Shown here piece by piece: positions 2,741-37,101 of a stretch of 64,000 bases of DNA. Each line of letters starts with the position of its first letter. Position 1 is the stretch's first letter. This stretch comes from Bacillota bacterium. GTDB taxonomy: Bacteria > Bacillota > Negativicutes > Sporomusales > CTSoil-080. The notes beneath the pieces are model-generated. The model saw only the letters and a list, made by a program, of their open reading frames with translations, searched no databases and was not told where the DNA came from. The stretch is from NCBI GenBank assembly GCA_017889625.1, contig JAGGAD010000001.1:1-64000 (forward strand), given 5' to 3'. Position numbers and translations under genes: made by a program.

Positions 2741-3850
2741 ATGCAAGAAATGGCTGTTCAACTGGTGAACCTGGACAAAGAATTTGAGGGACAACACGCT
2801 GTAGAAAAAATAAGTTTAGATATTGCTAAAGGCGAATTTCTTACGTTTTTAGGACCAAGCGGTTGTGGAAAAACCACTACGCTAAGGATGATTGCGGGTT
2901 TTGAAGATCCTACAAGTGGCTGGATTTTGCTGGATGGAAAGCACGTTGAAAATACGCCGCCGTACGCGCGGAATGTTAATACTGTATTTCAAAGTTATGC
3001 CTTGTTTCCGCATATGAGTGTGTTTGATAATGTTGCCTTTGGGTTAGCCATGAAGAAGGTTGGAAAAGCCATAATTAAGCAAAAAGTTAATGATGCTTTG
3101 GGATTGGTCCGACTTGACGGGTTTTCTGGCCGGAAACCTAATCAGTTGAGCGGTGGACAAAGACAGCGGGTGGCTATTGCCCGAGCGCTTGTAAATAGCC
3201 CAAATGTACTCTTGTTGGATGAGCCAATGGGAGCGCTTGATCTTAAATTACGCAAGCAAATGCAGATTGAACTTAAACGGCTGCAAAAAAAATTGGGAAT
3301 TACTTTTATTTACGTGACGCATGACCAAGAAGAAGCACTGACCATGTCAGACCGAATTGCAGTTATGAATGAAGGGCAGATTGAGCAAGTAGGAACACCT
3401 GATCAAATTTATGAGCATCCCCAGAGTAAATTTGTTGCTGGTTTTATTGGCGAGACCAATTTATTCAAAGGAACAGTACAGAGCGTTAACGGAGACTATG
3501 CTCTTTTGGAACTAGAAGGTAGCCGGGTGCCGATTATTAATAATGATCTTACTCTTGGGGAAGAAGCTTTTATCGCGGTCCGGCCGGAACGAATAGATTT
3601 TGCTCATTCGCAGCAAGAAAATTCATTTGTGTTATCCGGATGGTTTAAAGAACAAATATATGTGGGATCAATGGTTAAATCCATTATAACATTGGAGAAT
3701 GGTATGGAAGTGATTGTTAATGAGCCGGTTGGACGCTCCGCGCAGGCGGTTTTGCAAAAGGATCGGCAAAGGCTGTTAACTTGGGATCCTAAACATGCCA
3801 TTGTGGTAAAGGACGGCAGGAATAATAAGGCTTATTGTAGTGAAGTGTAA
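2741..3850 (+). CDS. potA: Spermidine/putrescine ABC transporter, ATP-binding subunit
   Basis: A 369-aa ATPase that energises polyamine import at the cytoplasmic membrane. Walker [10 protein letters not shown] lies at about 39-47, the Q-loop at QSYALFP, the signature LSGGQ near 137, Walker B VLLLDEP near 158, and the H-loop in THDQEE. The C-terminal about 110 residues form the OB-like TOBE regulatory domain (VRPERI) typical of PotA-type subunits. Length is normal. ATG follows AGGAGGGATGAGGCT. It is first in the order potA-potB-potC-patA-potD. Confidence 0.93.
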
Positions 3851-3888
3851 GTCGCAAGTTAGTTTAAGAAAGGAAAGAGTTAATATAA

Positions 3889-4821
3889 GTGAGTGAAGGT
3901 GGTTTTATGAAGGACAATTCAGGAGTTTTAACCACGGTATTAGTTGAGGATAGTGGAAAAAGCGAGGTGAATAGCAAGAAACGTGAACTTTGTGCGTTGA
4001 TCAGTCCGGTCGTTTTTTGGATGGTAGTTTTTGTTGCTATTCCGCTTCTATTGGTAGTGGGCGTAAGTTTTCTGCAACGAGGTATTTATGGTGGAATTGA
4101 ATATCAGGTGACTATTAATAATTACATTCGAATGTTCAATCCAATGTACTTTCGCATTATTTGGAACTCGGTAGTCTTATCTTTTTTCACTACCATTATT
4201 TGTTTAATTTTGGGATATCCTTTTGCGTATTTTACGGCCCGAGCTCCCCAAAAAATACGGGGAATGCTTCTCATGCTCACAATACTTCCCTATTGGACTA
4301 ACTCACTAGTGAGAACTTATGCCTGGATTATATTGCTTAGAACCGAAGGGGTTATAAATACTATTTTACTTAATATAGGTGTGATTACGGCTCCGATTCC
4401 TATGCTGTATAATGAATCAGCAGTATTGATTGGCTTAGTCTATGTACTATTTCCGTTTATGGTTTTGCCGCTTTATACTTCAATTGAAAAACTGGATCGT
4501 TCCCTGTTGGAAGCGGCTAGTGATTTAGGGGCGACTCCGCTAAAAGCTTTTTTCAAGGTAACCTTGCCGTTAACCAAGTCCGGTATCTTGGCTGGTGCGG
4601 TAATGGTGTTCATTCCTTCATTAGGTTATTTCTTCATTCCTGATCTAATGGGGGGAAGCAAGGGGCTATTAATCAGCAACCTCATTAAAAATCAATTTTT
4701 GACGGCCCGTGATTGGCCGTTTGGGTCAGCAATTTCAATAATATTGATAGCAATTACGTTGATTATTATATTTCTTTATTTCCGCAATGCCGGAAGCAAA
4801 GAAAAATTGGAGGTATTCTGA
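3889..4821 (+). CDS. potB: Spermidine/putrescine ABC transporter permease (PotB-like)
   Basis: A 310-aa inner-membrane permease with about six transmembrane helices. The EAA loop that docks the ATPase is visible (LLEAASDLGATPLKAFFKVT, about 205-224). The given start is GTG 3889 after AGGAAAGAG; an ATG at 3907 has its own GAAGGTGG and is a good alternative that would shorten the N-terminus by six residues. Its stop codon overlaps the start of potC (TGATG), which implies translational coupling. Confidence 0.9.
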   Translation: MSEGGFMKDNSGVLTTVLVEDSGKSEVNSKKRELCALISPVVFWMVVFVAIPLLLVVGVSFLQRGIYGGIEYQVTINNYIRMFNPMYFRIIWNSVVLSFFTTIICLILGYPFAYFTARAPQKIRGMLLMLTILPYWTNSLVRTYAWIILLRTEGVINTILLNIGVITAPIPMLYNESAVLIGLVYVLFPFMVLPLYTSIEKLDRSLLEAASDLGATPLKAFFKVTLPLTKSGILAGAVMVFIPSLGYFFIPDLMGGSKGLLISNLIKNQFLTARDWPFGSAISIILIAITLIIIFLYFRNAGSKEKLEVF

Positions 4822-5603
4822 TGAATCACAAGTTAATTCGCTGGACATCTGTCTCCTATGGGTTATTGATCTATTTGTTCTTATATGTCCCAATTTTTGT
4901 ATTGATTGCGTATTCTTTTAATGACTCGAAGTTAAATGTGCTGTGGATGGGTTTTACGGTTAAATGGTATGTTGCTCTGTTTAATGATGCCGATATTATC
5001 AATGCTTGTAAAACTAGTTTAGAATTGGCGATGATCAGTACAGTAGTTTCTACCATGATTGGCACTTTAGCAGCAGTAGGCATGTATCGCTATAATTTTA
5101 AAGGCAAAAGCATTTTGGATGGGTTATTGTATGTGCCAATTCTAATACCGGAAATTGTAATGGGCGTTTCCTTATTAGCATTTTTTTCAATGATTAGTAT
5201 TTCGGCTGGCTTTTTAACGTTGCTAATTTCCCATGTTGCGTTTAGTATCCCGTTTGTAGTATTAGTTGTCAGGGCGAGGTTAGACGGTTTTGACCGTTCG
5301 GTAGAGGAAGCGGCGATGGATTTGGGAGCGACCCCATGGCAGACTTTCTCTAAAATTGTCCTTCCCATTATCATGCCTGGGGTGGTATCCGGAGCACTAT
5401 TGTCTTTTACCTTATCGCTAGATGATGTGATAATAAGTTTCTTTGTTTCCGGTCCGGATAGCATGACGCTACCGCTAAAAATTTATTCGATGGTTAAGTT
5501 TGGTGTTACGCCAACAATTAATGCCTTATCCACGATTTTGTTGGTAATTACGCTGGTTATTGCGGGGATTACCCAATATCGGAATAATAAAAACGGAATT
5601 TAG
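4821..5603 (+). CDS. potC: Spermidine/putrescine ABC transporter permease (PotC-like)
   Basis: The second permease of the importer, 260 aa, with about six membrane helices and the EAA motif (VEEAAMDLGATPWQTFSKIV). The start is the ATG at 4821 that shares its A with the TGA stop of potB, preceded by GGAGG. The frame is open further upstream inside potB, but that part does not look like a permease N-terminus. PotB and PotC should form the heterodimeric channel. Confidence 0.92.
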   Translation: MNHKLIRWTSVSYGLLIYLFLYVPIFVLIAYSFNDSKLNVLWMGFTVKWYVALFNDADIINACKTSLELAMISTVVSTMIGTLAAVGMYRYNFKGKSILDGLLYVPILIPEIVMGVSLLAFFSMISISAGFLTLLISHVAFSIPFVVLVVRARLDGFDRSVEEAAMDLGATPWQTFSKIVLPIIMPGVVSGALLSFTLSLDDVIISFFVSGPDSMTLPLKIYSMVKFGVTPTINALSTILLVITLVIAGITQYRNNKNGI

Positions 5604-5607
5604 TTAA

Positions 5608-7032
<1,425 letters not shown>

Positions 7033-7083
7033 AATTAAAGTCTTATGTGTTAAAAAAGTAAAAAATAAAGGAGGGAAACATTA

Positions 7084-8175
7084 ATGAAACTTTGTAAAAA
7101 ATTTTGGGCGTTAACAGTAATACTGGTGGTATTGGGTTTAATTACGGTATTATTTGCAGCTGGTTGTGGAAAAACTGAAGGATCGAAGCCAAAGTTGGCA
7201 TCTGAACTTAATTTATTTATTTGGTCTGAGTATATACCTCAGGCGGTGCTGGATAAATTTGAGCAAAAATATGGCATTAAAGTTAATCAGACTAATTACT
7301 CATCTAATGAAGAAATGTTGGCTAAATTGCAGGCTGGTGGTACTTCACAGTATGATGTGGCGGTTGCCAGTGACTATATGGTAGAAATTATGTTGAACCA
7401 AAAACAGCCGATTATTCAGGTGATTGATTTAAATAATGTGCCGAATTTAAAAAATATTGATCCGCAGTATAGGAACAAAGTTTTTGACCCCGACAATAAA
7501 TACTCAGTGGCTTATGTATGCGGTAGTGCGGTAATAGCTGTAAATAAAGATAAGATTAAAGAATCAATAAAAAGTTACAAGGACTTGATGAATCCAAAGT
7601 ATAAGAATTCTTTGGTGGTACTGGATGATGAACGTGCGATTATCGGGATAGGGCTAAAGCTGTTGGGGTACTCCCTAAATGAAACCGATGAGGAGAAAAT
7701 AAAACAAGCAAAAGATGTTGTGTCTAAATTAATTCCTAATATAAAAGCCTATGACAGTGATAGCCCTAAAACTTTGCTGATTAATGGCGAAGCAGCGGGT
7801 GGAGTTGTATGGAGTGCTGAGGCATCGCTAGCTAAAAGGGAAAATCCTAATATTGAGATTATTTTTCCAGAAGAAGGGATGTATCTGTGGCAGGATAACT
7901 TGGTTATTACCCAAGGTGCACCGCATAAAAAAGAAGCGGAATTATTTATCAACTTTATTTTAGAACCTGAAATCAGCGCAATGATTTCTAAAGAATTTCC
8001 ATATACAAACCCGAACCTTGAAGCTCGTAAATTATTGGACCAAAGTGTCTTAGAAGATAAATCAGCTTACCCGCCGCAAGACGTATTGGCAAAAGGTGAA
8101 TTCTTAAGGGATGTTGGTGAAGCAACGAAAATTTACGATGAATTATGGTCTGAACTAAAACAAAAAATAAACTAG
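7084..8175 (+). CDS. potD: Spermidine/putrescine-binding lipoprotein
   Basis: A 363-aa solute-binding lipoprotein. A hydrophobic signal (about 9-27) ends in the lipobox LFAAGC, so it should be lipidated and face the outside of the inner membrane. The mature part has PotD/PotF features: LNLFIWSEYIP, YDVAVASDYMV, and the C-terminal hinge region LFINFILEPEIS. Polyamine binding is inferred from family and operon. ATG follows AAAGGAGGGAAACATTA. It is the last gene of the operon; a strong hairpin follows at 8303. Confidence 0.93.
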   Translation: MKLCKKFWALTVILVVLGLITVLFAAGCGKTEGSKPKLASELNLFIWSEYIPQAVLDKFEQKYGIKVNQTNYSSNEEMLAKLQAGGTSQYDVAVASDYMVEIMLNQKQPIIQVIDLNNVPNLKNIDPQYRNKVFDPDNKYSVAYVCGSAVIAVNKDKIKESIKSYKDLMNPKYKNSLVVLDDERAIIGIGLKLLGYSLNETDEEKIKQAKDVVSKLIPNIKAYDSDSPKTLLINGEAAGGVVWSAEASLAKRENPNIEIIFPEEGMYLWQDNLVITQGAPHKKEAELFINFILEPEISAMISKEFPYTNPNLEARKLLDQSVLEDKSAYPPQDVLAKGEFLRDVGEATKIYDELWSELKQKIN

Positions 8176-8302
8176 TTTGATAAACTCTGATTTGAAAACT
8201 ATTGTTGAGCTGGCGATGGGAAACCACTTGGTGCTACCATATTTCGAATAAAAAATTATCATAGTAAAAATATTTTTAGAATAATACCTAAAAATAATAT
8301 CG

Positions 8303-8348
8303 AAAAATGCCATTTAAAAAGTTCGAGTACTTTTTAAATGGCATTTTT
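8303..8348. terminator. Bidirectional terminator between potD and a convergent gene
   Basis: A 20-bp perfect stem AAAAATGCCATTTAAAAAGT / ACTTTTTAAATGGCATTTTT with a short loop, flanked by T-rich sequence on both strands. It separates potD from the gene at 8380-8721. Confidence 0.9.
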
Positions 8349-8379
8349 TCAATTAAAACTAAATAAAATTGTAATAAAT

Positions 8380-8721
8380 TTACTCAGCAAGTTCGTAATA
8401 AGTGATTACTGATACTGTATCGTGTGGAGTGACTAAAGTATGGTACATTTTGGTCAGATAATCAGGGATCTTATTGGTGCAGTTTATCGTTGGATTTTCC
8501 AGCAGAATATCTTCCGAAGTTAAGCTTGATACCGTTTTTACCAGAATTTTATCAATAACTGCGGTACATAATTTCTTTTTCCCAACAGCGGAATTACCAG
8601 TAGTGATCCAGATCACTTCATCTTCGGAATATTTATGAGTTATATCTCCTAATTGGATAGTGCCCTTTTTAGGAGCTATAGCCTGTTTATTTAAGTAATT
8701 TAAATTTATTGCTTTCATCAA
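8380..8721 (-). CDS. Small protein with possible ASCH/PUA-like fold
   Basis: 113 aa, or 112 from the second Met. The pattern DEVIWITTG, GKKKLCTAVIDKI, SSLTSEDI, and a C-terminal HDTVSVITYYEL resembles ASCH-type PUA-like domains, which bind RNA or modified nucleosides. The similarity is by eye and weak. GGAGGG precedes ATG at a normal distance. It lies 47 bp after the 39-aa reading frame on the same strand, so the two are probably co-transcribed from the promoter at 9149-9176. No function is assigned. Confidence 0.55.
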   Translation of the reverse strand: MMKAINLNYLNKQAIAPKKGTIQLGDITHKYSEDEVIWITTGNSAVGKKKLCTAVIDKILVKTVSSLTSEDILLENPTINCTNKIPDYLTKMYHTLVTPHDTVSVITYYELAE

Positions 8722-8768
8722 TAACCCTCCAGTAAAATAATAAATAAAGTTGGCGGGCGGTGCTTATC

Positions 8769-8888
8769 TTAGCCTTGCTGTCGCTGGGTGAGAGGCAGTT
8801 GGCGTAAAGACGCTGGGGGAACCTTAATTTGGAATCCCATCTTTGATAGTGATCCAGTGTCAGTTTGTGCCGATTGTATCAAAGCCAT
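8769..8888 (-). CDS. 39-aa peptide of unknown function
   Basis: A short frame from ATG 8888 to TAA 8769, with an excellent ribosome site (AAGGAGG, 7-nt spacing). The peptide begins MALIQSAQTD and ends LPLTQRQQG. It is rich in Gln, Leu and Ser, has no Cys, no membrane helix and no signal peptide. It lies just after a terminator-like hairpin and just before the ASCH-like gene. It could be a small regulatory protein or a translated leader. The ribosome site is the only support for translation. Confidence 0.5.
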   Translation of the reverse strand: MALIQSAQTDTGSLSKMGFQIKVPPASLRQLPLTQRQQG

Positions 8889-8922
8889 ATTGATTCCTCC
8901 TTATGATAAAATTTAGTTAAAC

Positions 8923-8962
8923 AAAAAAGGCACCTAAAACGAAATTCTTCGCTTTAAGCACC
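8923..8962 (-). terminator. Terminator/attenuator upstream of the 39-aa peptide gene
   Basis: On the minus strand a stem of 15 consecutive pairs (including G-U) with loop GAAT is followed by TTTTTT. It lies between a good promoter (9149-9176) and the two small genes. It would therefore either end a short RNA of roughly 200 nt or control read-through into the genes. An upstream TAAGC can pair with the GCTTA in its 5' arm, which is a possible competing structure. Confidence 0.7.
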
Positions 8963-9148
8963 ATTGCTTATTCAAGTTAACACCTTATTGTCTATACATA
9001 AATGATAACATAGGTTAGTGAAAATTGCTATAGCTGTACTGCACAAACATTTTTGTAATTTATACTAGACAAAGCTATAAAAAGTACAAATAACAACAAA
9101 ATCAAATATTTGAAAGATAAATTTTTGTTGCAATAATCTAAAAAAAAC

Positions 9149-9176
9149 AATATAGTTAAACAGGGTAGCGTGTCAA
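9149..9176 (-). promoter_or_regulatory. Sigma-A-type promoter reading leftward
   Basis: On the minus strand TTGACA (9176-9171) and TATATT (9154-9149) are separated by 16 nt. It would start a leader of about 250 nt ahead of the 39-aa peptide gene. The rest of 8963-9239 is AT-rich with no supported gene. The promoter of the plus-strand gene at 9240 must also lie here, but I cannot place it. Confidence 0.5.
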
Positions 9177-9239
9177 TTATAGGATAATCAAATGTTATAA
9201 AAATATACAATACGTTGATAGTTGAGGGGGAAAAAGTAA

Positions 9240-11612
9240 GTGAAAATCGGAAAAGAAAGAATAAGAAAATTACGGGAACAAATGCTGGTTACGCCTGAGA
9301 TATGTGCCGAAAGAGGCTATCTCATGACCGAATCCTATAAGGAGACTGAGGGGCAGCCAGAAGCAATCAGAAGAGCGAAAGCACTGAAAAAAATTGTGCA
9401 AGAGATGACTATAGGTATTGGTGAAGGTGAAATTATTGTTGGGCGGGGTTCGAGTAAACAGCGTGGGGCTCTCCTGACACCGGAACTTAATTCGGCTTGG
9501 TATTTGGATGAAATTGATTTACTATCGACGCGGAGTGTTGACCGGTTTAACCCGATTGATGAAGCGACAAAAGAAAAAATGCGCGAATTCATTCCGTACT
9601 GGTATGGAAAATCTTTGGCGGATAAATGGCGTTCGCGGATACCGGAAGATATTTTACGGTTAAACAACCTGGTTCAGGGTGGCGGCGCTTTCTGTAATAA
9701 TAATCAGTATTATGGTCACTCCGGTGCTGATTACGGTATTGTAGTTGACAAAGGCTTAAATGGAGTTAAGCAAGAAGTTGAAGAAGAATTAGCAAAAATT
9801 AATTTGGCGGATATAAATGATTTTAACAAATATCAATACCTTAATGCTTTAAAGATATCCCTGGAAGCTGGCGTTATTTTTGCTGAACGGTACGCTAATC
9901 TGGCCTTGGAATTGGCTGCTAAGGAAACGGACAGCAAGAGAAAAGCTGAGCTAGAAGAAATTGCAGCAGTCTGCAAATGGGTACCGGCTAACCCGGCACG
10001 TAACTTCCGGGAAGCGTTGCAGTCGATGTTCTTCTCATTCCTAATGATCATGATTGAAGGAATTGGGACGGGGATTGGCTTTGGCCGTGCTGACCAGTAT
10101 CTGTATCCGGTGTATAAAAAGGATATTGATAATGGAGTACTTACTCCGGATGAAGCTAAGGAACTGCTTCAGTTATTCTATATCAAGTGTAATGGACTGG
10201 TAATACCTTATGCGACTCAAGGCGCAGCCTTTTTTGCCGGATTTACGCTGGGCGCTAATTTCATTCTTGGCGGTCTGACTGAATCGGGAAAAGATGCGGT
10301 TAATGAATTGTCATATGTTTTCCTTGATGCGGAAAAAGAAATAGCCTTGAATTCGGAAGATATTATTGTTCGAATTCATAGAAAGACCCCGGAAGCTTTT
10401 GTGATAAAAGCTTGTGAAGTTGCTCATGAATTAAAAGGGAAGGTAAAGTTTTTGAGTGACGAAACGGTTATTCAGCAAATGGTAACTGATGGTAAACCAC
10501 TGGAATATGCCAGAAATTATGGCATAACCGGTTGTAACAGCCCGACGGTACCGGGATACTCACTAGATGTACCTGGCGGTATGGTCAATATGCCACTGTT
10601 ATTGGAATTAGCGTTAAATAACGGTGTCTCCCGGGTACTGAAAGAACAAATTGGACCTAAAACTGGTGATCCTCGCAAATTCACCTCTTATGAAGATGTT
10701 TGGAATGCATTCGAAAGCCAGGTAAAAGCACTTATGCCAGCAGCACTGATTTTCCGCAATGTGGATAAAGAACTGTTTGCAGAATTTTTGCCAATTCCGT
10801 TCCAATCATGTCTTTATCATGGAACTGCCAAGAAAGGCATGGATATTTGCGCTGGGTCAACGGCCCCTTATATGACTTTTGCCGTATCGTTAGCTGGGAC
10901 GCCTAATGTTGGCGATTCGTTGGCAGCGATCAAAAAGGCAGTATTCGAAGATAAGAAAATCACCATGGAACAATTGATTAAGGCATTGGATAACAACTTT
11001 GAAGGTTATGATGATGTGCTGCACATTTTGAGCACAGCGCCTAAATTTGGTAACGATTTGGATTATGTGGATTCAATCGTTGACCAAGTAATTGGTATGG
11101 CCAGTGGCGAAGTTGGTAAGGAGAAAGGGTTTGCCGGAGCGGTATCCAACTGTGCCGCCGGAACAGTAACTGCTAATATTCCACTGGGCTTTGTGGTTGG
11201 CGCTTTACCTGACGGAAGAAAAGCTGGTACGCCATTATCAGAAGGTGGGATATCACCGCATCAGGGAAGAAATGTGTCGGGTCCTACCGCTACGTTGAAG
11301 TCAGTAGCAAAATTGGATCATACTAAATTTACTAACGGTTCAGTGCTGAACATGCGGTTTAGCCCGGATGCGTTGAAGGATGCTCAGAAGATACGGAAGT
11401 TTGCTTCGCTGATACGGACGTACTGCGAAACCGGTGGTTTTTTGGTCCAATTTAATATTGTTAGTAGCGACACATTACGGGAAGCCCAACAACATCCGGA
11501 AATGCATAAAGACCTTTTGGTCAGGGTATCAACCTACAGTGCTTATTATGTAGAACTTAGCCCTGAATTGCAGAATGATATTATCGACAGAATGGAATTT
11601 GAAGAAGTATAA
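9240..11612 (+). CDS. Glycyl radical enzyme (PFL/dehydratase-type) homologue lacking the radical glycine
   Basis: 790 aa, the full length and fold of the PflD/diol-dehydratase group of glycyl radical enzymes. It has the N-terminal PFL domain (GxGEGEIIVGRGSS, PARNFREALQS) and the C-terminal gly-radical domain (GALPDGRKAGTPLSEGGISP; NIVSSDTLREAQQHPE). The thiyl-radical Cys is present at 432, in ITGCNSP. Two key features deviate. The usual RV(A/S)GYSA finger reads RVSTYSA: Thr765, codon ACC at 11532-11534. The usual GCVE reads GCNS, so the partner Glu is missing. Without glycine at 765 normal activation should be impossible. It could be a pseudoenzyme, or depend on a separate radical-bearing subunit. 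GTG start after GAGGGGG. There is no activase gene beside it; the nearest is at 47511. Confidence 0.85.
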   Translation: MKIGKERIRKLREQMLVTPEICAERGYLMTESYKETEGQPEAIRRAKALKKIVQEMTIGIGEGEIIVGRGSSKQRGALLTPELNSAWYLDEIDLLSTRSVDRFNPIDEATKEKMREFIPYWYGKSLADKWRSRIPEDILRLNNLVQGGGAFCNNNQYYGHSGADYGIVVDKGLNGVKQEVEEELAKINLADINDFNKYQYLNALKISLEAGVIFAERYANLALELAAKETDSKRKAELEEIAAVCKWVPANPARNFREALQSMFFSFLMIMIEGIGTGIGFGRADQYLYPVYKKDIDNGVLTPDEAKELLQLFYIKCNGLVIPYATQGAAFFAGFTLGANFILGGLTESGKDAVNELSYVFLDAEKEIALNSEDIIVRIHRKTPEAFVIKACEVAHELKGKVKFLSDETVIQQMVTDGKPLEYARNYGITGCNSPTVPGYSLDVPGGMVNMPLLLELALNNGVSRVLKEQIGPKTGDPRKFTSYEDVWNAFESQVKALMPAALIFRNVDKELFAEFLPIPFQSCLYHGTAKKGMDICAGSTAPYMTFAVSLAGTPNVGDSLAAIKKAVFEDKKITMEQLIKALDNNFEGYDDVLHILSTAPKFGNDLDYVDSIVDQVIGMASGEVGKEKGFAGAVSNCAAGTVTANIPLGFVVGALPDGRKAGTPLSEGGISPHQGRNVSGPTATLKSVAKLDHTKFTNGSVLNMRFSPDALKDAQKIRKFASLIRTYCETGGFLVQFNIVSSDTLREAQQHPEMHKDLLVRVSTYSAYYVELSPELQNDIIDRMEFEEV

Positions 11613-11663: not shown

Positions 11664-11707
11664 AAACGGCATAATATTGGAAAATATTCCAGTATTATGC
11701 CGTTTTT
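11664..11707 (+). terminator. Rho-independent terminator after the GRE homologue
   Basis: AAACGGCATAATA (11664-11676) pairs with TATTATGCCGTTT (11693-11705) and a T-run follows. A second, unpaired copy of CCAGTATTATG lies just downstream at about 11712-11722. Confidence 0.8.
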
Positions 11708-11864: not shown

Positions 11865-13316
11865 ATGCTTGTGAGGTTAAGGCCTTTCCTATTAAAAAGC
11901 AATTATATATATTTACAAAATTATAGGATACCCCTAATGCTGGTTGCATTCGGGGTGATCCTATTTGTTTTATTTGAGGCATGGGTAATTAGGCTGGGGC
12001 TGTTTGCTGGGGCAGCGTTCTTGGTTGTTATGATCCAGGGGCGTGAACAACAAAAACTAAAAGAGATACATCGGCAGAGTTGTGAATCTTTAAACAGGGA
12101 AAGACGAGAACAAAGTTGGATTAAAGCGGAATTAGGCCAAGCGAAGGAACAGGCTGGAAGAGGTGAAGTAGCTCAAAATAAGTTTCTTGCAGCGATGGGA
12201 CATGAGGTAAGGACGCCAATGAACGGGATTATCGGCATGACTGATTTGGCGCTGATGACTGACCTGACGGATGAGCAGCGAAATTATCTTACGACGGTAA
12301 AAACATCGGCGTTGTCATTACTAAAAGTATTTGATGATATTCTCGATTATTCAAAAATGGCAGCTGGTGGTATAGAATGTTGTAATGCTTCCTTCTCTTT
12401 GCTTCAGCTTGTTGAGGAAGTAATTGAGTTATTTGATGTAGCTACTAAATACAAGGGAGTAGTTCTTAATACGGTGGTTGATGACACTTTGCCAAAACTG
12501 TTTATGGGAGATTCGGTAAGGCTGAGACAGGTACTTGATAATATAATTGGCAATGCTGTTAAATTCACCGATCAAGGCGAGATTTCGCTAGAAATTACTC
12601 GTGAAGCCGAGGATAAAGATAAAATTATGTTGCGATTTTTGGTTCGCGATACCGGCATTGGTATTCCTGGTGATAAATTGAAAAATTTATTTGAAAGTTT
12701 TAACCACGTTGATGATTCTTATACCCGGGAGTTTAGCGGAACGGGGCTAGGATTGGCGATTTCTAAGAAATTGGTTAACCTTTTGGGTGGAGACATCTGG
12801 GTAGAAAGTGTAGTTGGCGTAGGCAGCAATTTTTATTTTACGGTAACTTTTGAAAACATCATGGAAACAACGTTAGCAAGCAAGCTTTACGATGAGAACA
12901 CCTGTAAGCGGGGGGCGGATGCTAACCGTAAACGAGTGCTGTTAGCTGAGAATGACTTACTATGCCGGCAATCTCTTATCAATATGCTGACCGATAATGG
13001 AGTTGATTTATTGATAGCGAAAAACGGTCAGGAAATTATTGAAATTATCGAAACCCAAGCAGTTGATTTGATATTGTTGGGGATAAGTTTACCTCTTTTG
13101 GATGGTTATACTGTGGCCAAAATCATTCGTGGTAAAAAAGATATGGCCGAAGTCCCGATTATCGCGGTTTCAGCTAAAAAAATGTTTAGCGAAAAAGAAA
13201 AGTGCTTAGCAGTTGGGATGAATGATTATATCTCACAACCAATTGATAGAACGTTAATGAATGGGGTGATGAAAGAGTGGCTGTTCAATGAGCGGTATAA
13301 TCAATTGATGATATAA
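11865..13316 (+). CDS. Membrane hybrid sensor histidine kinase with degenerate receiver
   Basis: 483 aa from the ATG at 11865 (AGAGGTGA, good spacing); the frame is open to a TTG at 11829. Two membrane helices lie at about 23-58 with no sizeable external sensor. A HisKA domain follows with the phospho-acceptor His113 in [10 protein letters not shown], then HATPase_c (N box [12 protein letters not shown] boxes RDTGIGIP and GTGLGLAIS). The C-terminal receiver (about 366-480) has the acidic pocket (LLAEND) and the Lys-like region, but the phospho-acceptor Asp is Gly406: [15 protein letters not shown], codon GGG at 13080-13082. It therefore cannot take phosphate in the usual way. It precedes cheY and cheA, so it may feed into chemotaxis signalling. 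Confidence 0.85.
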
Positions 13317-13345
13317 ATGTGGTTAGTATATAGGAGGCTGAAACA

Positions 13346-13696
13346 GTGAAAAGTGTTTTAATTGTAGATGATATGTTGTTTATGCGGTTATCGTTAAAAA
13401 TGATGCTGGAAAAAAATGGATTCGAAATAGCTGGTGAGGCTCAAAATGGAATTATAGCGGTCGAAAAATATAAGATCCTTAGACCGGATATTGTTACAAT
13501 GGATATTACGATGCCTGAGATGAGTGGTATTGAGGCGCTAAAACAAATAAAAGCTTTTGATAAAAATGCCTGTGTGGTTATGGTCAGCGCAATGGGGCAG
13601 GAGGCAAGTGTATGTCAAGCTGTTGCTTTCGGTGCCAAGGGCTTTATTGTTAAACCGTTTGTTGAAGAGACAATTATTAAAGGGCTGACATGGTAA
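13346..13696 (+). CDS. cheY: CheY-like single-domain response regulator
   Basis: 116 aa, a stand-alone receiver: acidic DD at 8-9, phospho-acceptor Asp53 in VTMDITMPEMSG, the conserved Ser in MVSAMG, and Lys in VKPF. There is no output domain, so it should act by protein contact, for example at a flagellar motor switch or as a phosphate sink. GTG start after TAGGAGGCTGAAACA. It lies directly before cheA. The C-terminus (GLTW) is slightly shorter than most CheY proteins. Confidence 0.88.
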   Translation: MKSVLIVDDMLFMRLSLKMMLEKNGFEIAGEAQNGIIAVEKYKILRPDIVTMDITMPEMSGIEALKQIKAFDKNACVVMVSAMGQEASVCQAVAFGAKGFIVKPFVEETIIKGLTW

Positions 13697-13733
13697 GTTC
13701 GTCCGATATTTGAGGTGAAAGGGCGGCTCAATC

Positions 13734-15800
13734 ATGACGGAAAACGATTTTTCCAGAGAACCAATGTTGGATATGTTTCTTTTTGAAACTAATCAGCTTA
13801 TTGAGCAACTGGAAGAAATTATTATTAAATGTGAGCAAGATCGTCGGCTGGATAATAGTGATGTCAATGAAATATTCCGGATTATGCATTCTATAAAAGG
13901 CTCGGCGGCAATGATGCTGTTTAATGATATTTCGCTATTGGCCCATTCGTTAGAGGATTTATTTTTCTTTATTCGTGAGAAATCGGATATTCAACTTGAT
14001 TTTGCAAAACTGTCAGACCTAGTACTTGCTGGTATTGATTTTATCAAAGAAGAAATTATCAAGATTAAAACTGGAAATAATGCCGGTTCTTCTTCCGAGG
14101 AACTTATTTCCATAAATGCGGAATATTTGTCTGATTTAAAAAGTGAAATTGGTAACAATGATGAAGTTGGCGCTGATTCAGTAAAGAGAATTCAGCAGTA
14201 TTACATTAGTAATTATCAGGCGACAACAGGCAAGGAAATTACTAGGTATTATGCCCGGATTTTTTTCGATGAGAATTGTCAAATGGAAAATGTCCGAGCC
14301 TATACGGTTATACATAATTTGGGTGATATCGCTGAAGAAATTTATTATTTACCGGAAGATCTTTTGGAAAACAGCGGAACTTCTGAGATCATAAAGAATG
14401 ATGGGTTTGAGCTTTATTTCAGCACCGATAAACCACGCGAAGAGGTTGAAAAGCTTCTCAATGATACTATGTTTTTACGGACGATTGAGATTAGCGTAAG
14501 TGATGAAAGTCTAATTTCGAGAGCGACGTTACATAAATCTTTGACAGTTGCCGATGCGACGGAAGAACTTAGTTCAATAAATTCTGAGGCTAACTTAGAA
14601 AATGGTAAAGGGACAGAGACTTCAGTAAACGCCAAACAGCAAAGTATGATAAGCGTGAATGTTGTTAAGCTGGATACACTGATGGACCTTGTAGGTGAGA
14701 TTGTGATCGCCGAGGCTATGGTTACCCGGAATCCAGACTTAGATGGGTTGGTGCTGGATAACTTTTATAAAGCTGCCCGGCAATTGAGAAAGTTGACAAA
14801 TGAGTTGCAAGATATTGTCATGTCAATCCGCATGGTACCAGTGGCGATGACTTTTCAAAAGATGAATCGGATAGTCCGTGATATGAGTCGTAAGCTTGAA
14901 AAAGAAATTGAATTGGTGATTATCGGGGAAACAACCGAAGTTGACAAAAATATTATTGAGCGTCTGTCGGATCCGTTGATGCATATTATTCGTAATGCGG
15001 TTGATCATGGGTTAGAAGACCAGACAGGCCGGTTGGCTGCAGGTAAGCCAATTAAGGGAAAAATAACGCTGGAAGCCCGTAATGTTGGGGGCGATGTGTG
15101 GATTACTGTCCAGGATGACGGAAAAGGACTGGACCGGGATAAAATCTTGACTAAAGCGCGGGAACGCGGGTTGGTTAATAAAATTGAGAATGAACTTTCG
15201 GATAAAGAAATTTATTCTTATATCATGTTGCCGGGTTTTTCCACTAGCGATAAGGTTACCGAATTTTCCGGGCGTGGTGTGGGCATGGATGTAGTACGAA
15301 AAAATGTCGAGGAAATTGGCGGTACCATTACTATTGAAAGTACGCTGGGACGGGGTTCGGAGTTTAATATTAAAATTCCGTTAACGCTGGCGATAATCGA
15401 TGGTATGTTGGTGAGTGCCGGACGAGCTAAATATACGATACCTACAACTTCAATTCGTGAGTCGTTTAAAGCTAGCGAGGACGATGTAATTGCTGATTCC
15501 GCTGGTAATGAAATCATAATGCTGCGGGGACAGTGTTACCAAGTGCTTAGACTGCATAAGTTGTTTAAGCTAGATGGTGCAGGAGGCAGTGTAAACGATG
15601 GAATCATGGTGATGATTGAAGGTGAAGATAAAGCGGTATGTCTGTTTGCCGATCGCTTGATTGGTGAACAACAGGTTGTAGTTAAGGCGTTGCCGGCCTA
15701 TTTAAAACGAATCAACGGCATTGCTGGTTGCACAATTTTGGGTGATGGCAGTATTAGCCTTATTCTGGATGTTAATGCTCTTATAAAAAAACAAATGTAA
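13734..15800 (+). CDS. cheA: Chemotaxis histidine kinase CheA
   Basis: 688 aa, with the full CheA layout. The HPt (P1) domain has His52 in IMHSIKGSAAM. A P2-like middle domain (about 160-255) should bind CheY/CheB. Then come the P3 dimerisation domain from about 303 (NVVKLDTLMDLVGEIV), the P4 kinase (N box HIIRNAVDHGLE; G boxes DDGKGL and GRGVGMDVV), and a CheW-like P5 domain at the C-terminus (about 555-688). It phosphorylates CheY and CheB in response to receptors through CheW. The ribosome site (AAAGGGCGG) is modest. It lies 37 bp after cheY and 19 bp before cheW. Confidence 0.95.
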   Translation: MTENDFSREPMLDMFLFETNQLIEQLEEIIIKCEQDRRLDNSDVNEIFRIMHSIKGSAAMMLFNDISLLAHSLEDLFFFIREKSDIQLDFAKLSDLVLAGIDFIKEEIIKIKTGNNAGSSSEELISINAEYLSDLKSEIGNNDEVGADSVKRIQQYYISNYQATTGKEITRYYARIFFDENCQMENVRAYTVIHNLGDIAEEIYYLPEDLLENSGTSEIIKNDGFELYFSTDKPREEVEKLLNDTMFLRTIEISVSDESLISRATLHKSLTVADATEELSSINSEANLENGKGTETSVNAKQQSMISVNVVKLDTLMDLVGEIVIAEAMVTRNPDLDGLVLDNFYKAARQLRKLTNELQDIVMSIRMVPVAMTFQKMNRIVRDMSRKLEKEIELVIIGETTEVDKNIIERLSDPLMHIIRNAVDHGLEDQTGRLAAGKPIKGKITLEARNVGGDVWITVQDDGKGLDRDKILTKARERGLVNKIENELSDKEIYSYIMLPGFSTSDKVTEFSGRGVGMDVVRKNVEEIGGTITIESTLGRGSEFNIKIPLTLAIIDGMLVSAGRAKYTIPTTSIRESFKASEDDVIADSAGNEIIMLRGQCYQVLRLHKLFKLDGAGGSVNDGIMVMIEGEDKAVCLFADRLIGEQQVVVKALPAYLKRINGIAGCTILGDGSISLILDVNALIKKQM

Positions 15801-28993: not shown

Positions 28994-30130
28994 ATGAACT
29001 TCGGGCTATCAGAAGACCAAAAGATGCTACAACGCATGGCTCGTGGGTTTGCAGAAAATGTGATAAGACCTGCAGCGCAAGAGTATGATGAAGCCGAAGA
29101 GTTTCCCTGGGATATTATTAATCTGGCCCACGAGGCTGGTTTAATGAATCTCAAAATTCCTAAAGAATATGGCGGGCAAGGATTAGATAATGTTAGTGCT
29201 AGCTTGGTGTCGGAAGAATTAGCCGCTGGCTGCGCTGGCATTTCCAATGCAATTGGGGTTAATAATTTAGCCACGATGCCGATTCTTATGGCGGGGACTG
29301 TTGCCCAAAAAGATGAGTTTCTTAAGCCGCTTTGTATAAAACCGCATTTGGCGGCGTTTGGTTTGACTGAGGCAAGTGCCGGGTCGGATGTGGCTGCCTT
29401 GAAAACAACTGCGCAGCGCGTAGGTGATGAGTACATACTTAACGGTAGAAAATGGTTTATTAGTAATGGTAGTGTTGCTAGTCTGTATACTATTTTTGCC
29501 ACTTTGGATAAGCAAAAGAAAAGCAAAGGCATAACGGCTTTTGTTGTCAAACGCGATACGCCAGGCGTATCTATTGGTAAAAAGGCGATGAAAATGGGGA
29601 TTCGGGCCTCTGACGTTTCTGAAGTAATTTTAGAAGATGTGCGGATTCCGGTGAAAAATCGTCTGGGTGAAGAAGGCGATGGGTTTAGAATCGCCATGAA
29701 AACGCTGGACTCATCCCGTCCGGAAGTTGCCGCAGGTGCGGTGGGGATAGCGAGGGCTGCTTTTGCGGTGGCGGTTGCTTATTCTAAGGAACGCATTATG
29801 TTTGATAAGCCAATTTGTGATAATCAAGCTATAAAAATGATGTTGGCCAAGATGGCTACTGATGTTGATACTGCTAGGTTGTTAGTTCATAGGGCGGCGT
29901 GGCTGCTTGATCAAGGCTGTTCACCTGCGATGGAAGGTGCTATGGCGAAGTGCCGGGCTGCTGATGTGGCGGTTAAGACGGCTACTGACGCAGTGCAAAT
30001 TTTTGGTGGTTATGGTTATCTCCGGGATTATCCGGTTGAAAAATTGCTGCGAGATGCTAAAATCTATCAGATATTTGAAGGAACTAATCAAATAAATCAA
30101 TTAGTTATTGCCCGTGAAGTATTGAGGTAA
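28994..30130 (+). CDS. Acyl-CoA dehydrogenase (short-chain type)
   Basis: 378 aa, FAD-dependent, forms or reduces the 2,3-double bond of an acyl-CoA. Family signatures are present: LTEASAGSDVAALKTTA, WFISNG, and the C-terminal GGYGYLRDYPVEKLLRD with the catalytic Glu in IFEGTNQ. The length matches butyryl-CoA dehydrogenases. No etfAB genes lie nearby, so its electron partner is elsewhere. It is the first gene behind the sigma-54 promoter. The direction, butyrate formation or acid oxidation, is not fixed by sequence. Confidence 0.93.
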   Translation: MNFGLSEDQKMLQRMARGFAENVIRPAAQEYDEAEEFPWDIINLAHEAGLMNLKIPKEYGGQGLDNVSASLVSEELAAGCAGISNAIGVNNLATMPILMAGTVAQKDEFLKPLCIKPHLAAFGLTEASAGSDVAALKTTAQRVGDEYILNGRKWFISNGSVASLYTIFATLDKQKKSKGITAFVVKRDTPGVSIGKKAMKMGIRASDVSEVILEDVRIPVKNRLGEEGDGFRIAMKTLDSSRPEVAAGAVGIARAAFAVAVAYSKERIMFDKPICDNQAIKMMLAKMATDVDTARLLVHRAAWLLDQGCSPAMEGAMAKCRAADVAVKTATDAVQIFGGYGYLRDYPVEKLLRDAKIYQIFEGTNQINQLVIAREVLR

Positions 30131-30224
30131 ATATAGCCTAGAGCCCGATTGGCGGGTAACCAGGTATATTGATAGGACAACAAGTCCATATTGTCTTGTA
30201 AATATGAAATGTGGAGGCTGAGTA

Positions 30225-31004
30225 ATGGAATATCAGAATTTGATTTATGCCCAAGAAAACGGTGTTGCGGTTATTACGCTGAACCGGCCGAAAGCTTACA
30301 ATGCGTTATGCGCTGAAGTTTTAGCTGAGCTCGATCAAGTGATGACTATCCTGGAAAATAGTGCAGAAGTTCGGGTAGTTATTATAACTGGTGGTAGCAA
30401 GGTTTTTGCGGCTGGCGCAGACGTCACTGAATTGATGAATGCCGACACGATGGCGGCTTATCGTAACTGCAGTAATGCTCACCGCGTCTACGACCGGTTT
30501 GAAGCATTGCCGTTTCCGACCATTGCCGCAGTTAACGGGGCAGCTCTGGGCGGTGGTTGCGAATTGACGCTGTGCTGTGATTTTAGAATTGCTGGGGAGA
30601 ATAGTATGTTTGGCTTGCCTGAAATTACCTTGGGTATTCTTCCTGGGGCAGGCGGGACTCAGCGTTTGACTAAGTTAGTTGGTCCGGCTAGAGCCAAAGA
30701 AATGGTATTGCTTGGTTCGCCGGTAAAAGGAGAAAAAATTGCTGAATTTGGCTTAGCTACAAAGGTTGTAGCCGATGACCAAGTTATGCCTGAAGCTAAA
30801 AAATTGGCGGTAAAATTGCTCGAAAGACCTGGGGTTGCCTTGGCGTTGGCTAAAGAAACTGTAAATTATGCGGTTAATGTTGATGTTAATACCGGCAAAA
30901 GTTATGAGCGCGCTAGATTTGCAATGGCATTTTCCAGTGCCGATCAAAAAGAAGGCATGAAAGCTTTTGTAGAAAAGCGTAAGCCAGTATATATCAACAA
31001 GTAA
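30225..31004 (+). CDS. Enoyl-CoA hydratase/isomerase family protein (crotonase)
   Basis: 259 aa. Both catalytic glutamates of crotonases are present, in ALGGGCELTLCCD and LPEITLGILPGAGGTQRL. The oxyanion region FAAGADVTEL is intact. It hydrates crotonyl-CoA-type substrates to 3-hydroxyacyl-CoA. ATG after GTGGAGG. It lies 94 bp after the dehydrogenase gene in the same unit. Confidence 0.93.
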   Translation: MEYQNLIYAQENGVAVITLNRPKAYNALCAEVLAELDQVMTILENSAEVRVVIITGGSKVFAAGADVTELMNADTMAAYRNCSNAHRVYDRFEALPFPTIAAVNGAALGGGCELTLCCDFRIAGENSMFGLPEITLGILPGAGGTQRLTKLVGPARAKEMVLLGSPVKGEKIAEFGLATKVVADDQVMPEAKKLAVKLLERPGVALALAKETVNYAVNVDVNTGKSYERARFAMAFSSADQKEGMKAFVEKRKPVYINK

Positions 31005-31071
31005 TAAAGGTATCGATAATCAATAGCCTTGCGGCTAGTGTGCGGCAGGGAAATTTAAGGAGGATTTTATT

Positions 31072-31932
31072 ATGGCAATTAAAACAATTGGTGTTATTGG
31101 CGCGGGTATGATGGGGGGCGGTATCGCCCAGGTTGCAGCAATGTCTGGGTATAATGTAATACTACGGGATATTGATATGAAGTACCTTGATAAAGCTGTG
31201 GCGAACATGGATAAGTTCATGGCTCGTTCGGTAGAAAAAGGTAAGATGACGGAAGAAGCCCGCCAAGCAACTTTAAAAAGAATTACGAAAACAACCGCTT
31301 TGGAAGATTTGGCTCCGGCTGATTTTGTTATTGAAGCTGTTTTGGAAATCATTGACCTAAAAAAAGAAATATTCCAAGGATTAAATAAAGTCTGTGGTCC
31401 GAATACAATTTTTGCTACTAATACTTCATCAATGTCAGTAACCGAGATTGCGGCTGCTTCCGGTCGACCGGACAAAGTCTGCGGTATGCATTTCTTTAAC
31501 CCAGCTCAGATTATGAAGCTGGTTGAAGTAATTCATGCTACCCAGAGTTCTGATGAAACCATCGCGACAACTATTGAACTTGCTAAGTCCTTTGGTAAAA
31601 CTACTGTTGAAGTTAAGAAAGATTCTCCGGGATTCATTGTAAACCGTCTGCTGTTCCCACATATGACCGAAGCTGCGCGCCTTTTGCAAGAAGGGGTTGC
31701 TTCGGTTGAAGATATTGATACGGCAATCAAATTGGGACTTAATTATCCAATGGGTCCATTCGAAATGTTCGACATGGGTGGCATTGAATTGTCCACTCAG
31801 ATCATGGATTATTTTGCTCAAGAGTTTAATGACAGTCATTATGCTCCGCCGCTGATTCTTAAACAACGGTTGCGGGCTGGGCTGATTGGCCGCAAAACAG
31901 GTGAAGGCTTCTATAAATACGATAAGAAATAA
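31072..31932 (+). CDS. hbd: 3-hydroxybutyryl-CoA dehydrogenase
   Basis: 286 aa. Rossmann motif GVIGAGMMGGGIAQVAA at the N-terminus, catalytic His in GMHFFNPAQIMKLVEVI, and the helical C-terminal domain (DSPGFIVNRLL, GLNYPMGPFEMFD). It interconverts 3-hydroxyacyl-CoA and acetoacetyl-CoA with NAD(P). Length matches clostridial Hbd. A strong AAGGAGGAT ribosome site lies upstream. Together with the preceding two genes it covers three steps of the C4 acyl-CoA route. Confidence 0.93.
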   Translation: MAIKTIGVIGAGMMGGGIAQVAAMSGYNVILRDIDMKYLDKAVANMDKFMARSVEKGKMTEEARQATLKRITKTTALEDLAPADFVIEAVLEIIDLKKEIFQGLNKVCGPNTIFATNTSSMSVTEIAAASGRPDKVCGMHFFNPAQIMKLVEVIHATQSSDETIATTIELAKSFGKTTVEVKKDSPGFIVNRLLFPHMTEAARLLQEGVASVEDIDTAIKLGLNYPMGPFEMFDMGGIELSTQIMDYFAQEFNDSHYAPPLILKQRLRAGLIGRKTGEGFYKYDKK

Positions 31933-31961
31933 AAGTTTGATTATAAATACTTAAAAAATCG

Positions 31962-31991
31962 ACTAGCGCTATGGTTTATCATAGCGCTAGT
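31962..31991 (+). other. Intercistronic hairpin between hbd and ptb
   Basis: ACTAGCGCTATG / CATAGCGCTAGT, a 12-bp perfect stem with a 6-nt loop and no T-tract. It probably sets mRNA stability or partial termination within the operon. Confidence 0.55.
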
Positions 31992-32012
31992 TAACTCTTG
32001 GAGGTGTTTTTT

Positions 32013-32912
32013 ATGAGTATTAAAAACTTTGATGTTTTAACTGAAAAGCTTAAAACCGGGGCGAAAAAGCGGGTTGTGTTGATTGGGGCTGAAGATACCC
32101 ATTCCTTGGAAGCCGTAATGTTGGCGCAAAAAGAAAATCTTGTGCAGCCGATTCTCGTAGGTAATAAAGCTACAATTGTAAAATATCTTGATGAGCTGAG
32201 TTTTTCGGCTAAAAATGTGCTGATTGTTGATTCAGCTGACGTGGAAGAATCGATAAAACAAGCTGCGAAATTAATCAACGCTGGTGAAGCCGACTTCATT
32301 ATGAAAGGGAAACTTGAAACTTCAACGCTAATGCGTGGGATTTTACAACGGGATAATAATTTACGTACAGACCGGATTATGTCTCATTTAGCGTTTATGG
32401 ATGTGCCTACTTATCATAAAGTATTTGCAATAACCGACGTAGCGCTTAACCCATATCCTAACCTGGATCAAAAACGGCAAATGATTGAAAATGCGGTAAT
32501 TACCTTAAAAAATATGGGAATTAATCAACCTAAAGTTGCCGTAATGTCCTCCGCTGAAGAAATTAATCCTAAAGTACCGGAAAGCGTTGATGCCAATGAA
32601 CTTAAAATGATGCAGCAATCAGGCGTTATTAAGGATTGCATTATTGAAGGCCCGATTTCGTATGATCTGGCAATCAGCAAGGAAGCTGCAGATCTGAAAG
32701 GGTATATAAGCCCGGTTGCAGGTGATGTGGACCTTATGGTTGTACCGAATATTACGGCCGGAAATCTTTTGGCGAAAGGCCTGACGTATTCAGGCGGAGC
32801 CAGAACGGCTGGGTTTGTAGTTGGGGCTAAGGTTCCTATTCTGCTGTTGAGCCGGTCGGCAAGTACTGAAGATAAATTTATGGGTATAGTGATTGCATCT
32901 TCCGCATGTTAG
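32013..32912 (+). CDS. ptb: Phosphate butyryltransferase-like enzyme
   Basis: 299 aa from ATG 32013, preceded by GGAGGTG; an in-frame TTG at 31998 is less likely. It belongs to the phosphate acetyl/butyryl-transferase family (LVGNKATIVKYL, MKGKLETSTLMRGIL, SYDLAISKEAADLKGY, VPNITAGNLLAKGL). It swaps CoA for phosphate on a short acyl group, and the kinase gene next door then makes ATP. The chain-length preference (butyryl, isobutyryl, acetyl) cannot be told from sequence. Confidence 0.9.
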   Translation: MSIKNFDVLTEKLKTGAKKRVVLIGAEDTHSLEAVMLAQKENLVQPILVGNKATIVKYLDELSFSAKNVLIVDSADVEESIKQAAKLINAGEADFIMKGKLETSTLMRGILQRDNNLRTDRIMSHLAFMDVPTYHKVFAITDVALNPYPNLDQKRQMIENAVITLKNMGINQPKVAVMSSAEEINPKVPESVDANELKMMQQSGVIKDCIIEGPISYDLAISKEAADLKGYISPVAGDVDLMVVPNITAGNLLAKGLTYSGGARTAGFVVGAKVPILLLSRSASTEDKFMGIVIASSAC

Positions 32913-33006
32913 TGTAGAAAATAGCATTTATAAGAGTGTCAAAGTGGCAACTACTAATGATGTGATAAGTGACGTATTATTATGCCTTTAAAGGGGGAAA
33001 ATTACT

Positions 33007-34098
33007 GTGAAACAATATAAAGTATTTGCTGTAAATCCAGGTTCTACTTCGACTAAGATTGCTTTATTTGAAGGGAATAAATGCATTTTTTCTAAAAATG
33101 TAACTCACGATGCGGAGAAGCTAAAAGAATTTAAAGATATAAAAGCGCAGTTTCCTTATCGCAAAGAAACTATTTTAAATGAATTGGCAAAAGAGTCAAT
33201 TAGTTTAAAAGGCGTGGATGCTTTTGTTGGCCGTGGTGGCGGTCTTGTTGCTCTAATCGGAGGAACCTATCGTGTTAATGAAAAACTTCTTGATGATGCG
33301 AGAACGGCAAATGATCATCCGGCAACATTAGGATCCCAGTTAGCAAATTCATTCATGCAGGAGTATGGTGGTGAATGTTTCGTGGTGAATCCGCCGGATG
33401 TAGACGAATTTTGTGATGTGGCCAGAGTAACTGGATTAAAAGGTGTGTATAGAGAAAGCCGGATTCATGCTTTGAATCAAAAAGAGATTGGAATTAGGTA
33501 TGCAGCATCCCTTGGCAAGAAATATGATGAACTAAATTTAGTCATTGCTCATATCGGCGGAGGAATTTCTATTACCGCGCATCAAAAAGGGAAAATGATT
33601 GATTCCAATGATATCCTAAATGGAGACGGGCCAATGGCGCCCACGCGTTGTGGTTCTATTCCGGTAAAAGATGTAATTAATCTGTGCTTTTCTGGGAAAT
33701 TTACCGAACGTGAAATGAAAGATAAAGTAAAGAAAACCGGCGGTCTTGTAGATCATCTTGGCACTTCGGATGTTTTAGAAATATCGCAAAAGATTGAAGC
33801 CGGTGATAAATATGCAAAATTAATTTTTGATTCCTTGATTTACCAGATTGAAAAAGCAATCGGCGCTATGGCGGCGGCGCTAAAAGGAAATGTAGACGCA
33901 ATTGTTTTAACCGGTGGTATTTCTCATAGCAAGTATTTAGTGGCGAATATTAAAGAAGCGGTAAGCTTTATCGCTTCAATTGAAGTTATGGCTGGAGAAT
34001 TCGAAATGGAAGCACTTGCAAATGGTGCAATTCGGGTAATAAGCGGTGAAGAAAAAGCAAGAATGTATACAGGAGTTCCGGTGTGGAATGGTTTTTAA
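33007..34098 (+). CDS. buk: Butyrate kinase
   Basis: 363 aa, an ASKHA-fold acyl kinase: VNPGSTSTKIALFE at the N-terminus, the signature AHIGGGISITAHQKGKMID, and the adenosine motif VLTGGISHSKYLV. Length and motifs fit Buk rather than acetate kinase (about 400 aa). GTG start after GGGGGAAAATTACT. With ptb it converts acyl-CoA to acid and ATP. Confidence 0.93.
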   Translation: MKQYKVFAVNPGSTSTKIALFEGNKCIFSKNVTHDAEKLKEFKDIKAQFPYRKETILNELAKESISLKGVDAFVGRGGGLVALIGGTYRVNEKLLDDARTANDHPATLGSQLANSFMQEYGGECFVVNPPDVDEFCDVARVTGLKGVYRESRIHALNQKEIGIRYAASLGKKYDELNLVIAHIGGGISITAHQKGKMIDSNDILNGDGPMAPTRCGSIPVKDVINLCFSGKFTEREMKDKVKKTGGLVDHLGTSDVLEISQKIEAGDKYAKLIFDSLIYQIEKAIGAMAAALKGNVDAIVLTGGISHSKYLVANIKEAVSFIASIEVMAGEFEMEALANGAIRVISGEEKARMYTGVPVWNGF

Positions 34099-36170: not shown

Positions 36171-36944
36171 ATGGAAGATATTTTTTCCTTAAAAGGCAAA
36201 AATGCGGTAGTTATCGGTGGCGCTGGCGGTATTGGCCAGGCTATTGCTAAAGGATTGGCTTTTTATGGTGCAAATGTTGCCATTGCCAGCAGAAAAATGG
36301 AAGGACTAACCAAAGCTGCTAAAGAAATTGGCGCTGAAGTTGGCAAGGAAATTAAAGTATTCCAGGTTGATTCATCTGATCAAGCTAGCATAAGAAATTT
36401 GGTTAGCACAGTTGTTAAGGATATGGGACGGGTAGATATTCTGGTAAATTCCCAAGGTCTTAACATGAAAGCACCAGCTCTTGAATTTGATATGAATAAT
36501 TGGGATGCTGTGTTTAGTGTTAATGTTAAGGGTCTAATGATGTGCTGTACTGAATTTGCCAAAGTAATGGTTAAACAAAATTATGGCAAAATTGTTAATG
36601 TTTCGTCGGTTCGCGGTGCGCGGGCCTGCGGCGGCGGAAATTCCGCATACTGTTCCAGCAAAGGCGCAGTTGACATGATGACCCGGACGTTGGCCGTTGA
36701 ATTGGCTAATAATAATATTACGGTAAATGCTATTGGGCCTACGGTTACTGAAACTCCAATGATGGTTAAGTTCTTAGCGAACGATCCTGGGGCTAAGGAA
36801 AGAATTGCGGCATCTCATCCGATTCATCGGATGGCTACAGTTGAAGATTGCATTGGGGCAGCGGTATTCCTTGCTTCTGATGCATCTAAATATGTTACCG
36901 GCCAAATCGTTTATCCTGATGGCGGACTTACCGCAGTAGGCTAA
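36171..36944 (+). CDS. Short-chain dehydrogenase/reductase (SDR), second
   Basis: 257 aa. Cofactor motif VIGGAGGIGQAIA near 13-25, NSQG in place of NNAG, catalytic Ser-Tyr-Lys in VNVSSVRG and YCSSKGAV, and the C-terminal VTGQIVYPDGGLTAVG. It is related to, but not a copy of, the SDR at 24200. Likely a hydroxy-acid or 3-oxoacyl reductase. It is the first gene divergent from the LysR regulator. Confidence 0.87.
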   Translation: MEDIFSLKGKNAVVIGGAGGIGQAIAKGLAFYGANVAIASRKMEGLTKAAKEIGAEVGKEIKVFQVDSSDQASIRNLVSTVVKDMGRVDILVNSQGLNMKAPALEFDMNNWDAVFSVNVKGLMMCCTEFAKVMVKQNYGKIVNVSSVRGARACGGGNSAYCSSKGAVDMMTRTLAVELANNNITVNAIGPTVTETPMMVKFLANDPGAKERIAASHPIHRMATVEDCIGAAVFLASDASKYVTGQIVYPDGGLTAVG

Positions 36945-37055
36945 ATAACTGACTAGTCAATAAAGATACATCCATACGGTGGTTGCTAAGTCGTAGCGAT
37001 AAACTTAAATAGGCAATTGAATGTGGTCGGTGAAAAATATATACATTGCTAATGA

Positions 37056-37101
37056 GAAGTCCTGAAACGTTTTTACCTATCGGGGTTCGTTTTAGGACTT
37101 C
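37056..37101 (+). other. Hairpin between SDR and hydroxyacyl dehydrogenase genes
   Basis: GAAGTCCTGAAACG (37056-37069) pairs with CGTTTTAGGACTTC (37088-37101) around a loop rich in T and G. There is no 3' T-tract. It may be a partial terminator inside the 293-bp gap, which holds no gene. Confidence 0.5.

Follow-up and report, generated by a model that had tools for sequence, protein, structure and literature searches.

The gene at 9240-11612 (+) of the window, by which we mean the whole 64,000-nucleotide stretch of Bacillota contig analyzed here, very probably encodes a stand-alone threonyl radical enzyme (TRE) that is activated in trans and whose radical would pass from Thr765 to Cys432 and then to a substrate held in a site lacking the glutamate of the eliminases. 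The sequence, its clade, the predicted fold, an empty site elsewhere in the window and the activase family are the parts of this picture that the analysis shows directly.

The open reading frame starts with GTG and encodes 790 residues with no internal stop. Its product consists of a PFL-like domain (Pfam, 605.7 bits; residues 6-650 aligned to positions 3-647 of the 647-position profile) followed by a Gly_radical domain (105.9 bits; residues 669-771), and all 37 of its 37 distinct PDB sequence matches belong to the glycyl radical enzyme (GRE) family. The protein fell under every equivalog cut-off in NCBIfam, the best scores being those for sulfopropanediol dehydratase (609.7 bits, cut-off 1000) and the PFL2/glycerol dehydratase subfamily (609.4 bits, cut-off 678.2). 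The RVxG[FWY] motif with the radical Gly of GREs in the strict sense is absent from this protein, which reads RVSTYSA with Thr765 (ACC, 11532-11534, +) at the radical-glycine position. The presumed thiyl-radical residue, Cys432 (TGT, 10533-10535, +), lies in ITGCNSPT, in which the GCNSP motif has Ser434 in place of the CVE-motif Glu of GRE dehydratases and eliminases. Translation therefore confirms a first-pass annotation of this DNA, made from the letters alone, which had described a full-length, uninterrupted GRE homologue with Thr for the radical Gly and no active-site Glu. The gene is preceded by a ribosome-binding-site-like sequence and followed by an inverted repeat with a T-rich tail (11664-11705, +; 19 nt arms, 95% complementary) that is likely a transcription terminator. 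Rfam returned nothing at the gathering threshold 5' of the gene; a riboswitch or other RNA element there was considered and dismissed, the only matches being microRNA-precursor models that fit a hairpin weakly.

Two further full-length copies with Thr are present in the source genome, one on contig C35 (L002; 65% identity, RVATFSS and GCNTP) and one on contig C58 (L003; 55% identity, RVATYSA and GCHNP). At least seven Thr-carrying homologues occur outside this genome: a scan of species genomes yielded L006 (76% identity), L007, L008, L009 (two tandem copies) and L056, the next-nearest homologues with a readable finger all having Gly, and another genome sample added one more Thr-type member (L135, RVSTWSA) together with one Gly enzyme (L136). 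Since Thr is common to the paralogues and to the closest homologues and is specified by different codons (ACC, ACA and ACG) among clade members, we can rule out both a sequencing error at 11532 and a loss peculiar to one strain, in which close homologues would all have had Gly. The rarity of TREs in these searches is only indicative, because in samples of ~390 genomes each the best two candidates per genome were scored under strict thresholds; the TREs of Flavonifractor plautii were not reached in these samples, and no TREs were found on viral contigs in IMG/VR. The occurrence of a TRE in a genome labelled Syntrophaceae (L007), in addition to Bacillota, is new as far as the available sources show.

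A search against GRE families followed by a maximum-likelihood tree, both of which had been proposed at the outset, placed all 10 Thr-clade rows on one side of a branch (100/100) in a tree of 38 rows that does not include the F. plautii enzymes and in which one Thr-clade row, L120, ends before the finger. The nearest relative of the window protein is its sister L006, followed by L002. The dN/dS between the window gene and L006 is ~0.06, a value that averages over the whole branch and has a dS near saturation; by this sequence-based measure the gene is under purifying selection, which, along with the full-length fold and the existence of a real Thr clade, upholds the earlier view that the protein is maintained.

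The first-pass annotation knew of no GRE branch with Thr, a statement that the literature has overtaken: Fu et al. (2024, PMC11528403) described aminoacyl radical enzymes (AAREs), relatives of GREs in which Ala, Ser or Thr replaces the radical Gly and which include threonyl radical enzymes. In FpTRE1 and FpTRE2 from F. plautii, C-alpha Thr radicals were detected by EPR after treatment with a radical SAM activase, and in FpTRE1 Cys437 and Thr770 are 333 residues apart (PMC11528403). The spacing of Cys432 and Thr765 is likewise 333, and the remaining eight TREs in the alignment have 332-333. Furthermore, TREs are generally found as two genes beside one activase (PMC11528403), and the order activase-TRE-TRE at L009 matches this arrangement. 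Given the Thr, the 333 spacing and the L009 arrangement, the window protein fits the TRE class and matches it as a new member, a placement that uses shared sequence features rather than a joint tree with the FpTREs. The four published features, namely the Thr, the Cys, an eliminase-like fold and a dedicated radical SAM activase with auxiliary clusters encoded in the genome, are all present, and the first three, along with a TRE-type activase in the genome, are what the window protein shares with FpTRE1 and FpTRE2, the comparison being one of features and not of aligned sequences. The exception concerns gene order: all AAREs studied by Fu et al. had an activase nearby (PMC11528403), whereas here enzyme and activase are 35.9 kb apart, a departure from a regularity and not from a chemical requirement.

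The AlphaFold2 model built from the 38-row alignment had a mean pLDDT of 93.4 and a pTM of 0.92, with the C-terminal finger confidently formed on the window protein itself; a model from the nine TREs only was weak (pLDDT 70.8). The top Foldseek match was the B12-independent glycerol dehydratase of Clostridium butyricum (PDB 1r8w; TM-score 0.95, 37% identity); propanediol dehydratase, hydroxyproline dehydratases and CutC ranked next, making the eliminases the nearest characterized kin of a Thr clade that stands apart from the Gly GREs. Relative to 1r8w, the whole fold, the thiyl Cys and the active-site His164 (His160 in the window protein) are kept, whereas Thr replaces the radical Gly, Ser replaces Glu435 of the CVE motif, Thr-Gly replaces His281-Ser282, and the TRE-only residues Asp374, Lys403 and Asp443 have no equivalent in the dehydratase. 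The other GRE eliminases HypD, CutC and isethionate lyase share the fold equally well (TM-score 0.93-0.96) but differ in that the window protein scores under the equivalog cut-offs and lacks the radical Gly and the Glu.

These differences extend across the clade. All TREs examined have the thiyl Cys, and His160 is kept in 10/10 Thr-clade sequences, while the eliminase Glu is found in 0/10, its position being occupied by S, T, N, N, S, Q, T, T, L and F. Columns that are invariant in the Thr clade and almost absent from the Gly eliminases include G278, D374, K403, S441, D443, R465, D477, R479, Q675, N678, S701 and T765. Among these, D374 and K403, on two predicted strands where mostly Ser and Ala are found otherwise, may line the pocket, and we consider Asp374, Lys403 and Asp443 to be candidate active-site residues. 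The clade-wide loss of the eliminase Glu and the candidate replacement residues are absent from the main text of Fu et al. (PMC11528403) and are new as far as the sources show.

The window also encodes a TRE-type activating enzyme (47511-48431, +), which the first-pass annotation had missed. This 306-residue radical SAM protein has a CX3CX2C motif from residue 31 and two auxiliary 4Fe-4S motifs, and shares 83% identity with the activase whose gene immediately follows the L006 TRE; TRE activases are at least 50% identical among themselves and 33-43% identical to two Gly-type activases. The activase gene lies 35.9 kb downstream of the TRE gene, behind genes for an MFS transporter (45123-46376, +; conserved beside TREs in L006 and L008/L112, with Pfam MFS_1 identified in the L006 counterpart) and a conserved sensor protein with an MCP signalling domain (46417-47352, +) that adjoins the TRE in L006. 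Between sensor and activase is a gap of 158 bp (47353-47510, +), the site at which the orthologous locus (L006/L107) has its TRE; no TRE remnant was found in this gap. The L006 locus is on contig C122 of a family-mate genome (G002), which is colinear with 24-57 kb of the window (~33 kb of synteny) and has the orthologous TRE between sensor and activase. In the window, TRE homology to this contig covers 9224-11613 with nonhomologous flanks, and G002 shows no colinearity for the pot/putrescine-aminotransferase and chemotaxis genes that flank the window TRE. At the edge of the new site of the TRE is an ORF of 113 codons (8380-8721, -), without a Pfam match, that is conserved in G002 (~70% DNA identity).

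Since the activase is adjacent to the TRE at all seven of the loci L003, L006, L007, L008, L009, L056 and L135, adjacency is very likely ancestral and the arrangement in the window derived. The source genome contains a second intact TRE-type activase, the C58 copy, and the activase gene behind the C35 TRE is reduced to its C-terminal end. Unlike the published TREs in general, the three TREs of the source genome are dispersed, and of its TRE activases two are intact and one is a remnant, so that any activation of at least two of the TREs has to occur in trans. The uncoupling of a TRE from its activase is new according to the available sources.

The absence of both the radical Gly and the eliminase Glu, together with the isolation of the gene from its activase, could also be read as the mark of a pseudoenzyme or scaffold that forms no radical and has a structural or regulatory role, such as activase binding, as the first-pass annotation had suggested; a displaced TRE could indeed have lost activity recently. 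This explanation is improbable, however, given an invariant thiyl Cys, a Cys-Thr spacing equal to that of FpTRE1 and the presence of TRE-type activases. Dedicated activases accompany nearly all TREs, threonyl radicals were demonstrated in FpTRE1/2 (PMC11528403), and TRE-only charged invariants fall in the barrel part of the sequence, all of which argues against a protein without radical chemistry.

A different concern is that the displacement itself is an assembly artefact, in which case the TRE, though real, would belong to the operon at 47.4 kb and the contig would be chimeric near 9-12 kb. The genome is a draft of 113 contigs, the homology block comprises the gene only, and the neighboring pot and chemotaxis genes lack colinearity in G002, all of which would be compatible with such an error. 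Nevertheless, the gap between sensor and activase is continuous intergenic sequence with no contig end, the TRE gene has its own terminator-like repeat and ribosome-binding-site-like sequence, and a second TRE of the same genome likewise no longer has an intact activase beside it, leaving a chimeric contig with little probability. Finally, rescue by a YfiD/GrcA-like subunit that would supply a glycyl radical separately, also raised by the first-pass annotation, is highly implausible: GrcA models match the C-terminus of the window protein far below cut-offs, as expected for any GRE, but the predicted finger is formed on the protein itself and the 98%-complete genome has no stand-alone Gly_radical domain, such domains occurring in the three TREs, one arylacetate-decarboxylase-type GRE and one 656-residue frame that is probably NrdD.

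The syntenic block around the activase offers some indication of the pathway in which a displaced TRE might act. It contains SDR, 3-hydroxyacyl-CoA-dehydrogenase-like and thiolase genes (36171-39470, +) that are colinear with the G002 TRE locus at 94-95% protein identity and are possible partners of the TRE, as well as genes for acyl-CoA dehydrogenase, enoyl-CoA hydratase, 3-hydroxybutyryl-CoA dehydrogenase, phosphate butyryltransferase and butyrate kinase (28994-34098, +), whose connection to the TRE is conjectured from synteny. SLH-domain porin-like proteins are encoded in the same block as the MFS, SDR, thiolase and beta-oxidation/butyrate kinase genes. Alcohol or carbonyl dehydrogenases recur near TREs, for example the SDR of the window block, two SDRs in L007, a zinc alcohol dehydrogenase in L009 and an aldo-keto reductase in L056. 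This context suggests, but only suggests, that an imported organic acid or alcohol (a hydroxy or carboxylic compound) is catabolized. Most neighbors in the colinear block are 66-84% identical to their G002 counterparts, compared to 94-95% for the 36171-39470 proteins, a difference that hints at recent exchange or unusual constraint.

Behind the orthologous TRE and activase of L006 (12492-17230) are genes for an FeFe hydrogenase, ferredoxin-like proteins and a formate-dehydrogenase-like molybdopterin oxidoreductase, possibly a formate-hydrogen module; the window has no such set at the corresponding position. A protein of 555-565 residues with no assigned function is encoded beside the activase in L109 (8797-10464; the C58 TRE locus) and in L112 (10212-11909; L008/G001). 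On contig C35 of the source genome (G000; L110, 3130-16962), the TRE (7942-10317) and its LysR gene have phage genes on either side, one terminase-like (6022-6804) and one for a portal protein (12745-14907); genes for an integrase and a major head protein are also close by, which places this TRE inside a prophage remnant, an observation that is new as far as the available sources show. Upstream of the window TRE is an operon (2741-8175) for a complete polyamine ABC transporter (potABCD-like) that includes a putrescine aminotransferase above its NCBIfam cut-off. A functional link between this operon and the TRE was rejected, since a perfect 20-nt inverted repeat (8303-8348) and the opposite-strand ORF lie between them and the other loci read have no such genes next to their TREs.

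We propose that a TRE uncoupled from an ancestral sensor-TRE-activase operon is activated in trans by a radical SAM activase, most likely that encoded at 47511-48431, which would remove the C-alpha hydrogen of Thr765. The Thr765 radical would then oxidize Cys432, and the thiyl radical so formed would attack a small substrate inside the glycerol-dehydratase-like barrel. Because the eliminase Glu is replaced, other residues must handle the substrate radical, for which Asp374, Lys403 and Asp443, with the retained His160, are the candidates. Radical formation on the window protein, the choice of activase, catalysis and the pathway are extrapolated from homology and context. We put forward more tentatively, as a possibility we favor less than its converse, that the Thr radical and a non-Glu site of Asp374, Lys403 and Asp443 co-evolved as a distinct chemistry, and that in this lineage a TRE has become free-standing and is activated in trans, two activases being shared among three TREs.

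TREs are a class established in 2024 with demonstrated radicals, and a search of the later literature found no reaction assigned to any of them. The source genome combines three TREs, a syntenic transporter/sensor/acyl-CoA locus and a natural separation of TRE and activase. Together with the TRE-only invariants, it supplies specific starting points in the search for a substrate and for asking whether one activase serves several TREs.
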